Part shown: piece after piece, positions 25,125 to 61,542 of the stretch | Position numbering within the stretch: the first letter of the stretch is position 1 | Layout: each line of letters starts with the position of its first letter | Assembly (NCBI RefSeq): GCF_020097135.1 | Contig: NZ_CP083608.1 | Span: 1,054,001-1,118,000, forward strand | Direction of reading: 5' to 3' | Source: Macrococcus armenti | GTDB lineage: Bacteria; Bacillota; Bacilli; Staphylococcales; Staphylococcaceae | Length of the DNA stretch: 64,000 nt | Position numbers and translations under genes: made by a program | Notes under the pieces: model-generated | Told to the model about the DNA's origin: nothing | The model's input: the letters and a program-made list of their open reading frames with translations, nothing else | Database searches by the model: none

Positions 25125-25153
25125 AATAGTCTAATGAATAGCTATTCTACCTT
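25118..25153. terminator. Bidirectional terminator
   Basis: 12-bp stem AAGGTAGAATAG / CTATTCTACCTT between the uncharacterised gene and the convergent toxin gene. The stem includes the stop codon of the former. Confidence 0.85.
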
Positions 25154-25419
25154 TTATAATGAAAACGACATTGTAAAATACAAATTAAATCATCTTCTAT
25201 CTTATATACGAGCCTATGTTCATGAGTGATCCTTCTGCTATAGCAACCTGTATAGTTTCCTAATAATTTTTCTGGCTTACCTATACCTTCATTTGCACCA
25301 TCAATCATAATACTCTTTATTAGTTTATTTATTTTCTTTAATACAGTTTTATCGTTAGTTTGCCAGTACGTATAATCTTCAAAACCACTTGAATAAAATA
25401 GTATCTTTTTCTTAGGCAT
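25147..25419 (-). CDS. Toxin, YoeB/Txe family (second module)
   Basis: 90-residue RelE-superfamily YoeB toxin. The conserved end CYSRRITHEHRLVYKIED and CRFHYKR, with the C-terminal His-Tyr, is present. It is quite different in sequence from the toxin at 21315, so this is a separate module rather than a duplication. It overlaps the antitoxin gene by 8 bases. Confidence 0.9.
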   Translation of the reverse strand: MPKKKILFYSSGFEDYTYWQTNDKTVLKKINKLIKSIMIDGANEGIGKPEKLLGNYTGCYSRRITHEHRLVYKIEDDLICILQCRFHYKR

Positions 25420-25669
25420 CTAAATCAATCTCAACTTGAAGTAAGTTATTTTTATTAATTGATTCATCAATCGCTTTTTGTAATCTTTCGGCATTCGCTG
25501 GTGTACTCTGTAAATAAAGTGTTTCAATCATACTATTATAGTCTTGTTCAGATAATATCACGGCATTATGCGTATTTGTTGTGATTGTGTAAGGTTCACA
25601 GTCTTCATTAACAATATCTATTATTTTTCTAAAATTTGATCTTGCATTAGAATAAGTTGTGACTTTCAT
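25412..25669 (-). CDS. Antitoxin, YefM/Phd family (second module)
   Basis: 85-residue YefM-type antitoxin: MKVTTYSNARSNFRKIID is the DNA-binding half, and NNLLQVEIDLDA the acidic toxin-binding tail. AAGGAGG precedes the ATG. A 17-bp palindrome lies 14 bases upstream of the start codon, consistent with autorepression. Confidence 0.9.
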   Translation of the reverse strand: MKVTTYSNARSNFRKIIDIVNEDCEPYTITTNTHNAVILSEQDYNSMIETLYLQSTPANAERLQKAIDESINKNNLLQVEIDLDA

Positions 25670-28230: not shown

Positions 28231-28263
28231 TTGTAATTACACCTATCTAAAATAACGAGATAA

Positions 28264-28368
28264 ATGGGTGTATTATCAGAAGACGGCGTATATAACTTGA
28301 TTGCTGAACAGTATGCTTTAAACATTAGAATGTTAGAAGTTGCGACACGGCAGTTGAAACAGCATTAA
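28264..28368 (+). CDS. Possible small protein of 34 residues
   Basis: ATG-initiated ORF of 34 codons (MGVLSEDGVYNLIAEQYALN...) ending in a predicted helix, directly after the polymerase gene. The ribosome-binding site is weak (CGAG). It could be a remnant of a larger mobile-element gene or a real small protein. I do not recognise it. Confidence 0.3.
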   Translation: MGVLSEDGVYNLIAEQYALNIRMLEVATRQLKQH

Positions 28369-28401
28369 GCAATTTATATTGAGCGTGTTAAAATTGAATA
28401 T

Positions 28402-28540
28402 GTGTGGTATAATTACACTAATCTAAAAGGACGAGGTAAAAGGTCATGGTAATTCTATAAATCCAAATGATGATATTGAATACAATATAATAATTTGTGA
28501 TGATAGGATTACTATGTCCTTTTTTATATCATCATTTGGA
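28402..28540 (+). promoter_or_regulatory. Attenuator-like leader of the ABC-F gene
   Basis: An extended -10 promoter (TGGTATAAT, -10 at 28408-28413) precedes a leader with several elements. A 4-codon ORF, Met-Val-Ile-Leu-stop (28446-28460), follows GACGAGG. A 15-bp perfect stem joins TCCAAATGATGATAT (28462-28476) to 28526-28540. Inside its loop is AGGA / TCCT followed by seven T (28505-28525). The segment TAAAAGGAC (28424-28432) can instead pair with GTCCTTTTTTA. This is the layout of ribosome-mediated attenuation known for antibiotic-induced ABC-F and erm genes. Confidence 0.6.
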
Positions 28541-28574
28541 CTTTCATATATTAAAAGATGAAAGGAAGAATGAC

Positions 28575-30095
28575 ATGATGCTACAATTTCATAATATTAA
28601 TAAACAAGTTAAAGATACTACTTTATTCAAAATAGACCAATTAAAGATTAACCAAGGAGATAAGATTGGCTTAATCGGTAAAAATGGTTGTGGAAAATCA
28701 ACTTTACTTAAAATGATTGCCCAAAAAGATACTTCATATTCAGGTGTAATAACTAATCCGTTTCAAACAAAATATGTTCCACAATTGAAAGAAATAACGA
28801 GCCAGTCAGGCGGGGAACAGACGAAAAGTTACTTACTTGATGCTTTTAACAGCAATAATGCTTTATTGTTACTTGATGAGCCATCCACTAATTTAGATAT
28901 GAACAATATCAAGTGGCTCATCAATCAAATCAATCAATTTCAAGGAACAATGATAATCGTGAGTCATGACAGATCATTACTCAATCAAACAGTACAAAAA
29001 ATATTAGAAATAGAAGAGAAAAAACTTAATATATATACCGGTAACTATGATGATTACGATGAACAAAAAAAGAAACAGTATGAGCAACAATTAAAAGAAT
29101 ATGAACAGTATCAAAAGAAAATTAATCAACTCCAGCAAGAATCAATTGAAAGAAATAAACATGCCTCAAACTTTAAAAAAAGAAAGAAGAATATTAGTAT
29201 TTCCGACTATAAAGTCAACTCAAGAATGGGTGCTTATGACAGTCAGGAAAAAGCAATCGCTAAATCAAGTAAAGTTCTGCAAAAACGAATGGAACAAATA
29301 GAAAAAGTAGAAAAGCCTCTGAGTGACAAACAATTTAAGATTAAAGCAATAGGTAAATTAAAACATACAGGTGCTACGTTAATTCATTTAGATAATTTTT
29401 CCGTTAGCATTGAAAATCATCTATTATTTCAATCGGGCATCTTCAAGCTAGTTCAAGGGGATAAAATTGCAATAACAGGACCTAATGGGAGTGGTAAGAC
29501 AACTTTTATTAGACGATTAATTGAAAAGAAAATTAATGGCTACTATAAACCAAATATAAAAATAGGTTATTTTGCACAAAATTTAACGACGTTAGACGAA
29601 CAAAAAAGTATATTTGAGAATGTGCAAAGTACATCGATACAGGACGATATACTTATTAGAAACGTACTTGGTGCATTGGGATTTGATTATTCGAGATTGA
29701 ATCAAACAGTTAAGTTTCTATCCGGTGGAGAACGTGTCAGACTACAAATCATAAAACTACTACTCGGTGATTATGATTTGTTAATCCTAGATGAACCGAC
29801 AAATTTCCTTGATATAGCTACAATGCAGGCATTAGAGCAATTCTTAAAAGATTATCCTGGAAGTTTTCTGATTATATCTCATGATGCGCAATTTATAAAT
29901 AATACGACAAAGTATAAATATGTCATAAAACAACAACAATTATTAGATGACACAAAACAAAAAGAATATCAAACGACTGATAGTAGTCACTTACAGCTAT
30001 TAGAATATAAATTAGAACAAATGATACTTGATCCTGACATAAATATACAGGATGTTATCAAACTTAAAAAGAAAATAGAAAATCTTAAAAAGTAA
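28575..30095 (+). CDS. Antibiotic-resistance type ABC-F ATPase (Vga/Lsa/Msr/VmlR-like)
   Basis: 506-residue ABC-F protein with two ATPase domains. The first has Walker A GLIGKNGCGKST, a short subdomain leading straight to signature SGGEQ, and LLLLDEPSTNLD. The second has TGPNGSGKTTF, signature LSGGERV and LLILDEPTNFLD. A charged linker of about 80 residues (roughly 175-265) joins them. The compact first domain and the second-domain stretch GYFAQNLTTLDEQKSIFENVQ resemble Vga(A). Such proteins displace lincosamides, streptogramins, pleuromutilins or macrolides from the ribosome; the spectrum here is unknown. The ATG at 28575 is preceded by AAAGGAAG. Confidence 0.85.
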   Translation: MMLQFHNINKQVKDTTLFKIDQLKINQGDKIGLIGKNGCGKSTLLKMIAQKDTSYSGVITNPFQTKYVPQLKEITSQSGGEQTKSYLLDAFNSNNALLLLDEPSTNLDMNNIKWLINQINQFQGTMIIVSHDRSLLNQTVQKILEIEEKKLNIYTGNYDDYDEQKKKQYEQQLKEYEQYQKKINQLQQESIERNKHASNFKKRKKNISISDYKVNSRMGAYDSQEKAIAKSSKVLQKRMEQIEKVEKPLSDKQFKIKAIGKLKHTGATLIHLDNFSVSIENHLLFQSGIFKLVQGDKIAITGPNGSGKTTFIRRLIEKKINGYYKPNIKIGYFAQNLTTLDEQKSIFENVQSTSIQDDILIRNVLGALGFDYSRLNQTVKFLSGGERVRLQIIKLLLGDYDLLILDEPTNFLDIATMQALEQFLKDYPGSFLIISHDAQFINNTTKYKYVIKQQQLLDDTKQKEYQTTDSSHLQLLEYKLEQMILDPDINIQDVIKLKKKIENLKK

Positions 30096-30154
30096 TCACA
30101 ATTCATAAAACTAAAAGCTTTCAGTAGACTGATAATTCCTTAGAAAATTTAATT

Positions 30155-60480: not shown

Positions 60481-61542
60481 TTATTTAGCATCTTGTATAA
60501 TTTTATTTAATAACTCATGTGCTGTATACCTAGTTGTCATACTATTCATTGCCTGTAGAATTTCATGCTGATGATTTTTAATATAATCCAGTTGTTTAGT
60601 AAGCGTTGCATAACTAAATAATGGCTCATCAATTACTGATGCATAACCTTGTGATTTAAATTGTGCTGCATTATCAATTTGATCTCCTCGGCTCTGATCT
60701 TTACCAAGTGGCACTAGAATCATCGGCTTTTTCAAAGCTAGAAATTCGAAAATCGCATTAGATCCAGCTCTTGAAATAACGTAATCCGTTATTTTAAATA
60801 AATGCATCAGTTCTTCACCTGCATATTCAAGCTGGTAATATCCTTCTTTTTTTATTTGGTTACGATTACCTTTACCAACTAAATGTATTATTTGATATGA
60901 ATGGAGCAGTTCATCAATATGGTTGAATATTATATCATTAATTACTTTAGAACCTAATGAACCACCCATAATTAATAAAATAGGTTTATTGGAATTAAAT
61001 TGCGTTAATGCATAACCTTGTTGTTTGTTTCCTGCAAATAATTCATTTCTTATAATACTACCGACATAATCTCCCGAACCGTCAGGAATGTAATCCAGAG
61101 TTTTTTCAAATGTAGTATACATTTTATGTGCAAATTTAAGGGCAATCCTATTAGCAAGACCTGGCGTTACGTCTGATTCATGAATGATCGTTTTTATATT
61201 AAGTATTTTTGCAGCAATCGTTACAGGAACAGCGACAAATCCCCCTTTAGAAAAAACGAGATCAGGCTTTTCTTTTTTTAATATTTTAAGTGCATCTAAT
61301 ACACCTTTTTGTACTTTAAAGACGTCTTTTACGTTCTCAACAGAAATGTACCTTCGTAATTTTCCGCTCGAGATACTATAATATTTCACGTCAGGAAATT
61401 GTTTTGTAATAACTTCCTGTTCAATTCCATTTTTTGAACCTATATAAATACAAGTAATATTTTCGCGCTGTGCTTCAGGTATGATCGCCATATTTACAGC
61501 AACATGTCCGATAGTACCTCCACCGGTAAATGCTATTTTCAC
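60481..61542 (-). CDS. murG: UDP-GlcNAc:lipid I GlcNAc transferase MurG
   Basis: 353-residue glycosyltransferase that converts lipid I to lipid II at the inner membrane face. N-terminal loop FTGGGTIGHVAVN, second-domain nucleotide motif LLIMGGSLGSKVIN, and SRAGSNAIFEFLALKKPMILVPLG are characteristic. It begins 11 bases after the ctpA stop and runs into pgpB, forming a probable ctpA-murG-pgpB unit. Confidence 0.95.
   Translation of the reverse strand: MKIAFTGGGTIGHVAVNMAIIPEAQRENITCIYIGSKNGIEQEVITKQFPDVKYYSISSGKLRRYISVENVKDVFKVQKGVLDALKILKKEKPDLVFSKGGFVAVPVTIAAKILNIKTIIHESDVTPGLANRIALKFAHKMYTTFEKTLDYIPDGSGDYVGSIIRNELFAGNKQQGYALTQFNSNKPILLIMGGSLGSKVINDIIFNHIDELLHSYQIIHLVGKGNRNQIKKEGYYQLEYAGEELMHLFKITDYVISRAGSNAIFEFLALKKPMILVPLGKDQSRGDQIDNAAQFKSQGYASVIDEPLFSYATLTKQLDYIKNHQHEILQAMNSMTTRYTAHELLNKIIQDAK

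Follow-up and report, generated by a model that had tools for sequence, protein, structure and literature searches.

Comparative sequence analysis, RNA folding and parallels with characterized regulatory leaders suggest that the 150-base region directly upstream of an ABC-F gene in Macrococcus armenti, itself likely to confer antibiotic resistance, is probably a ribosome-mediated transcription attenuator of this ribosome-protection gene, in which a stalled ribosome would block the terminator directly. Sequence and predicted structure show the constituent elements to be present and conserved, the alternative folds to be mutually exclusive, and leader and gene to be inherited together. The first-pass annotation of the window (the analyzed stretch of 64,000 nucleotides, located on a Macrococcus (Macrococcoides) chromosome of 2.2 Mb) had proposed that an attenuator leader containing a mini-ORF precedes a resistance-type ABC-F gene. 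This proposal is well supported by the conservation of the leader, by the fusion of ORF and terminator in one hairpin in each of the five species compared, and by the published precedents.

Organization of the leader

The elements discussed below, all in window coordinates, are the following.

28234-28267, + strand: decayed duplicate of the 5' part of the leader, an 82% direct repeat directly 3' of dinB
28405-28413, + strand: likely extended -10 promoter element TGGTATAAT, recognized from sequence, with TATAATTACA kept in all five species
about 28408-28574, + strand: leader, directly 5' of the ABC-F gene
28424-28432, + strand: TAAAAGGAC, 5' side of a previously noted alternative pairing (partner 28516-28524); present, not conserved
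28433-28436, + strand: Shine-Dalgarno sequence GAGG of the mini-ORF, 9 nt 5' of the ATG, invariant in the five species
28438-28523, + strand: terminator hairpin with the mini-ORF as its 5' arm, 20 outer pairs, U6 at its foot
28446-28460, + strand: mini-ORF MVIL (ATG GTA ATT CTA TAA), four codons
28462-28476, + strand: 5' arm of the 15-bp stem, 14 of whose 15 pairs are invariant
28520-28525, + strand: U-tract (U6)
28526-28540, + strand: 3' arm of the 15-bp stem, following the U-tract
28527-28580, + strand: structure predicted by folding to mask the Shine-Dalgarno sequence and start codon of the gene when the 15-bp stem is unformed
28562-28566, + strand: Shine-Dalgarno sequence AAGGA of the gene, within the masking structure
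28575-30095, + strand: chromosomal ABC-F ribosomal-protection-type gene, 506 aa

Transcription is predicted from the sequence to start near 28420. No good -35 accompanies the promoter element, and a consensus scan for promoters and terminators flagged neither the promoter nor the terminator of the leader as it requires a -35 and a loop of 3-8. The four-codon ORF of the first-pass annotation is present together with its GAGG, and it encodes MVIL in four species and MIIL in M. goetzii. An in-frame extension from a GTG at 28497 in the window was rejected, being absent in the relatives, whose frame ends within TTTTTTAA. By eye, no TTNTTT pause motif is seen between the mini-ORF and the terminator. 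The leader has no Rfam match above the gathering score; the sole Rfam match in the window is S414 (Staphylococcus sRNA 414), which lies elsewhere, at 60846-61017 (59.3 bits).

A predicted terminator hairpin that includes the mini-ORF

In silico folding, advocated in the first-pass annotation, shows that the RNA from 28380 to 28620 is far more stable than its shuffles (-58.6 versus -38.4 kcal/mol, z -5.85). When the RNA is folded as transcribed to the end of the U-tract, a single long hairpin spanning 28438-28523 is obtained, with an energy of -33.3 kcal/mol in the window and of -32.2, -34.4, -24.0 and -27.5 kcal/mol in the four relatives. The first-pass annotation had correctly noticed a hairpin with a U-tract but overlooked how long this hairpin is and that the mini-ORF itself is its 5' arm. 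With a modelled ribosome footprint (-15 to +16 around the codon) on the AUG, the folding of the leader weakens to between -9.0 and -12.7 kcal/mol in the five species, and placing the footprint on any of the four mini-ORF codons of the window gives -11.1 to -14.4 kcal/mol. Across the five leader sequences, which are the entire basis of the comparative fold evidence, the terminator pairs are kept in 94.9% of cells, versus 41-57% for slid helices. The helix contains one compensatory (double-sided) change and its covariation is no better than that of shuffles (195/500), so that the signal is one of conservation rather than covariation. The models predict, in five of five species, an intrinsic terminator upstream of the gene whose formation could be prevented by a stalled ribosome. 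When no ribosome is included, the minimum-energy fold at full length prefers the stem of 15-18 bp in L015 and L016; hence the attenuator model needs co-transcriptional order of folding.

The 15-bp stem and the start of the gene

The perfect 15-bp stem reported by the first-pass annotation (28462-28476/28526-28540) is real: none of 150 dinucleotide shuffles of a 200-nt region produced an inverted repeat as long (longest 13, mean 7.8). Because the stem hardly varies among the five species, covariation is unable to test it. The U-tract is transcribed before the 3' arm of this stem, and the stem therefore cannot decide termination; the order of transcription rules it out as a classical antiterminator. 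A role as a second terminator is unlikely as well, given that no U-tract follows the stem.

A further structure, overlooked in the first-pass annotation, covers the start region of the gene. In this structure (28527-28580; about -13.5 kcal/mol in each of the five species), the start codon of the gene pairs with an ATCA lying 5' of it, and a 7-bp hairpin takes in part of the AAGGA. Occupation of the mini-ORF by a modelled ribosome allows the 15-18-bp stem to form in the folds and leaves only the 7-bp hairpin of the masking structure. The mean predicted accessibility of the start region rises from 0.32 to 0.45-0.56 in this induced fold, with the Shine-Dalgarno core mostly paired even then; as the gain is modest, we hold the translational step less firmly. 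From these folds, the more likely role of the 15-bp stem is one after read-through, when it would free the start codon of the gene from the masking helix.

Inheritance of the leader with the gene

The leaders of the different species are 88-99% identical and the upstream sequence is divergent: 5' of the TATAAT, the species are largely unrelated or carry different genes, the upstream neighbour being dinB alone, an ATPase gene, or a small gene ending in ...LIAEQYALNIRMLEIATQQLKTH. Between the window and L016, the most distant ortholog, identity is 94.4% in the leader, 79.5% in the coding sequence and 46.8% at four-fold sites. M. goetzii reverses this order, with 87.9% identity in the leader and 91.8% in the coding sequence; many of the changes in its leader fall in the apical loop of the terminator. 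Sequence comparison thus shows the leader and the ABC-F gene to be co-inherited. In DNA and covariance-model searches of 108 genomes of the family, 300 genomes of the class, plasmids and viral contigs, the full leader was found only in Macrococcus; the reverse-strand matches of the covariance model reflect the symmetry of the hairpin.

The ABC-F protein

The protein passes the NCBIfam model for ribosomal-protection ABC-F proteins (NF000355; 455.3 bits, cut-off 380) and reaches none of the NCBIfam Vga, Msr, Sal and Lsa exception models, scoring 460.5 of 725 for Vga_all, 470.8 of 975 for VgaF and 280.8 of 725 for Sal. The best matches among solved structures are 7nhl (a lincosamide-streptogramin A resistance protein) and Listeria Lmo0919; the linker region aligns with 7nhl without gaps, and MsrE has short insertions there. 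In a search of plasmids, all matches were at most 60% identical, the closest named one being Vga(C) at about 40%, and the next relative among 157 genomes of the order is 40% identical. Orthologs (78-93% identity) were found in just four further Macrococcus genomes; the remaining four Macrococcus genomes that were searched lack them. Matches obtained with PADLOC were dismissed as generic ATPase matches only. The gene had rightly been called unfamiliar, yet an 'abc-f' gene already figures in a survey of the genus, in 74 of 110 Macrococcus genomes (PMC10400458), and we infer that it is the same gene. The protein looks like a Macrococcus-specific branch of the ABC-F family that is apparently undescribed.

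History and neighbourhood of the locus

The locus seems to have been lost and regained. The duplicate at 28234-28267 has an equivalent in G002, a genome without the ABC-F gene, and is, judging from the sequence, the trace of an older loss. Another genome without the gene, G008, retains a 53-bp remnant of the 3' end of the ABC-F gene and the sequence just beyond; it is found at L066:2229-2281, beside an MFS-type gene. Identity to M. epidermidis is 93.4% over the block 28267-30129, whose segment 28267-28368 is the 3' fragment of an upstream gene, whereas the adjacent dinB is 78% identical to that of M. epidermidis and 84-86% identical to those of G002 and G008. The block is likely a lateral import, and the simplest reading of the sequences is that an old loss was later made good by lateral transfer, which brought back switch and gene together.

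Some further observations concern the surroundings. The gene content following dinB in Macrococcus genomes (L064-L072) varies from species to species, comprising an ATPase gene, an integrase-like fragment and others, and resembles an insertion hotspot. In the related genome G004 (C64:18949-20224), dinB is split into two overlapping frames, reflecting either a frameshift or an assembly error. On the minus strand of the window, at 25147-25669, two adjacent ORFs of 90 and 85 aa resemble, by eye, a toxin-antitoxin pair of the YoeB/YefM type.

Comparison with known attenuators

Attenuation of vga(A) is reportedly a published precedent. The vga leaders are compared here as read from sequence. Like the Macrococcus leader, those of vga(A), vga(C) and staphylococcal vga-like genes have a tiny ORF that is equipped with a good Shine-Dalgarno sequence and sits in one arm of a hairpin. 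A terminator also precedes the related ABC-F gene, and a pairing core, TAATyCTAT/ATAGGATTA, is possibly common to both kinds. The vga-type ORFs have three codons (MIN, MKY, MIY, MSY, MIK, MIL, MRN) rather than the four of Macrococcus; they were seen in vga(A), vga(C), Jeotgalibaca vga, a Staphylococcus saprophyticus plasmid vga, the staphylococcal vga-like loci L049-L054, L056 and L058, and the order-level relative L075, with no vga-type leader seen in L055 and L057. Nearly all of these leaders continue into TAATCCTATT and a distal CCTCCTATTCTGAAT-type terminator. Thus, most vga-type leaders possess a separate distal terminator (CCTCCTATTCTGAAT...AGGAGG), whereas in Macrococcus the ORF is the 5' arm of the terminator; the vga-type combination of a three-codon uORF and such a terminator is not found in the Macrococcus leader, whose covariance model matched no vga-type leader at E<=1.

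In Bacillus subtilis vmlR, ribosome-mediated attenuation has been demonstrated experimentally, and this leader offers counterparts to the proposed stalling on a uORF, to the terminator and to the hairpin over the Shine-Dalgarno sequence of the gene, which in vmlR is predicted to be relieved on induction (PMC9226507). However, the anti-antiterminator, antiterminator, pause and terminator elements of vmlR are hairpins of their own, where Macrococcus has one ORF/terminator hairpin and an antiterminator would be unneeded. In msrD, the stalled ribosome has been shown experimentally to obstruct the terminator directly (PMC10314930), so that direct occlusion, as proposed here, has a precedent; in Macrococcus, the stem is built from the codons of the ORF and stalling would be expected at the start codon, whereas the msrD terminator stem begins 3' of the stop codon of the leader peptide (MsrDL, MYLIFM) and stalling occurs at that stop codon with macrolides. 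The principle of attenuation has also been shown experimentally for cplR of Clostridioides difficile (PMC10201436) and for are5sc (PMC12421871). The cplR leader (MRI) likewise has a short uORF within a hairpin and a premature terminator, but it forms two separate hairpins, and the Shine-Dalgarno sequence of the gene lies within the terminator. Every single element of the Macrococcus leader therefore has a precedent; what differs is the fusion of ORF and terminator together with a relay stem beyond the terminator. The principle is known, and the compact layout and the branch of the gene look undescribed.

Alternative interpretations

The first-pass annotation had placed the switch in an alternative pairing of TAAAAGGAC (28424-28432) with GTCCTTTTTTA (from 28516), which would act as an antiterminator when a ribosome stalls on the mini-ORF, as in classical attenuation. 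The pairing exists, with eight contiguous pairs plus a T-T mismatch in the window, and part of it is included in the window fold with a ribosome on the AUG. The pairing is not conserved, however, and its role as a switch is unsupported: it is kept in 66.7% of cells, no better than helices displaced by 2-3 columns (65.9-70.5%). L014, L015 and L016 lack its two G-C pairs at 28429-28430, and a ribosome placed on the AUG would occupy 28431-28462 and thus part of the TAAAAGGAC segment itself. We accordingly regard such an antiterminator as very unlikely. An even smaller probability attaches to the possibility that the hairpin is a mere terminator of the upstream gene, the mini-ORF a product of chance and the ABC-F gene constitutive. 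A gene fragment does lie immediately upstream, but the upstream genes vary by species while the leader stays with the ABC-F gene, a promoter-like TATAAT intervenes, and both the mini-ORF and its Shine-Dalgarno sequence are conserved.

The near-invariance of the 15-bp stem and the presence of the structure masking the start codon and Shine-Dalgarno sequence in all five species could also point to mainly translational attenuation, with little termination at the U6 hairpin and stalling that frees the start region through the stem. Given the strong hairpin with U6 conserved in the same five species and the modest predicted gain in accessibility, this interpretation is improbable, if less so than the other two.

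Proposed mechanism and implications

For the attenuator with direct occlusion of the terminator, we infer the following sequence of events, from transcription start through termination and stalling to translation and drug induction. When the drug is absent, ribosomes would clear the four MVIL codons at once, the cleared mini-ORF would pair as the 5' arm of the long hairpin with U6, and RNA polymerase would halt near 28525. A drug arresting ribosomes at the start codon or immediately beyond it would leave a ribosome occupying the 5' arm, so that the terminator could not form and the polymerase would enter the gene. After read-through, the free 28462-28476 segment would pair with 28526-28540, withdrawing sequence otherwise paired across the start codon of the gene and thus easing its translation. 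By analogy with Vga, the inducers would be pleuromutilins, lincosamides and streptogramin A.

More tentatively, the leader may be an attenuator reduced to a minimum: a single hairpin would serve as both sensing ORF and terminator, an initiation-arrested ribosome would be the antiterminator and a 15-18-bp helix would relay the signal to the start codon after read-through, all attached to an uncharacterised Macrococcus-specific ABC-F branch. Such a compact leader offers a clean system for defining the minimum RNA needed for ribosome-controlled termination, and it raises the question of whether a drug that stalls initiation is sufficient whatever the peptide. Furthermore, the locus seems to display a switch and its gene lost and laterally regained as one unit. 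If our interpretation is correct, the Macrococcus 'abc-f', whose link to macrolide resistance is at present only a database prediction, may encode ribosome protection that is inducible by drugs, and routine resistance tests performed without an inducer could miss it.
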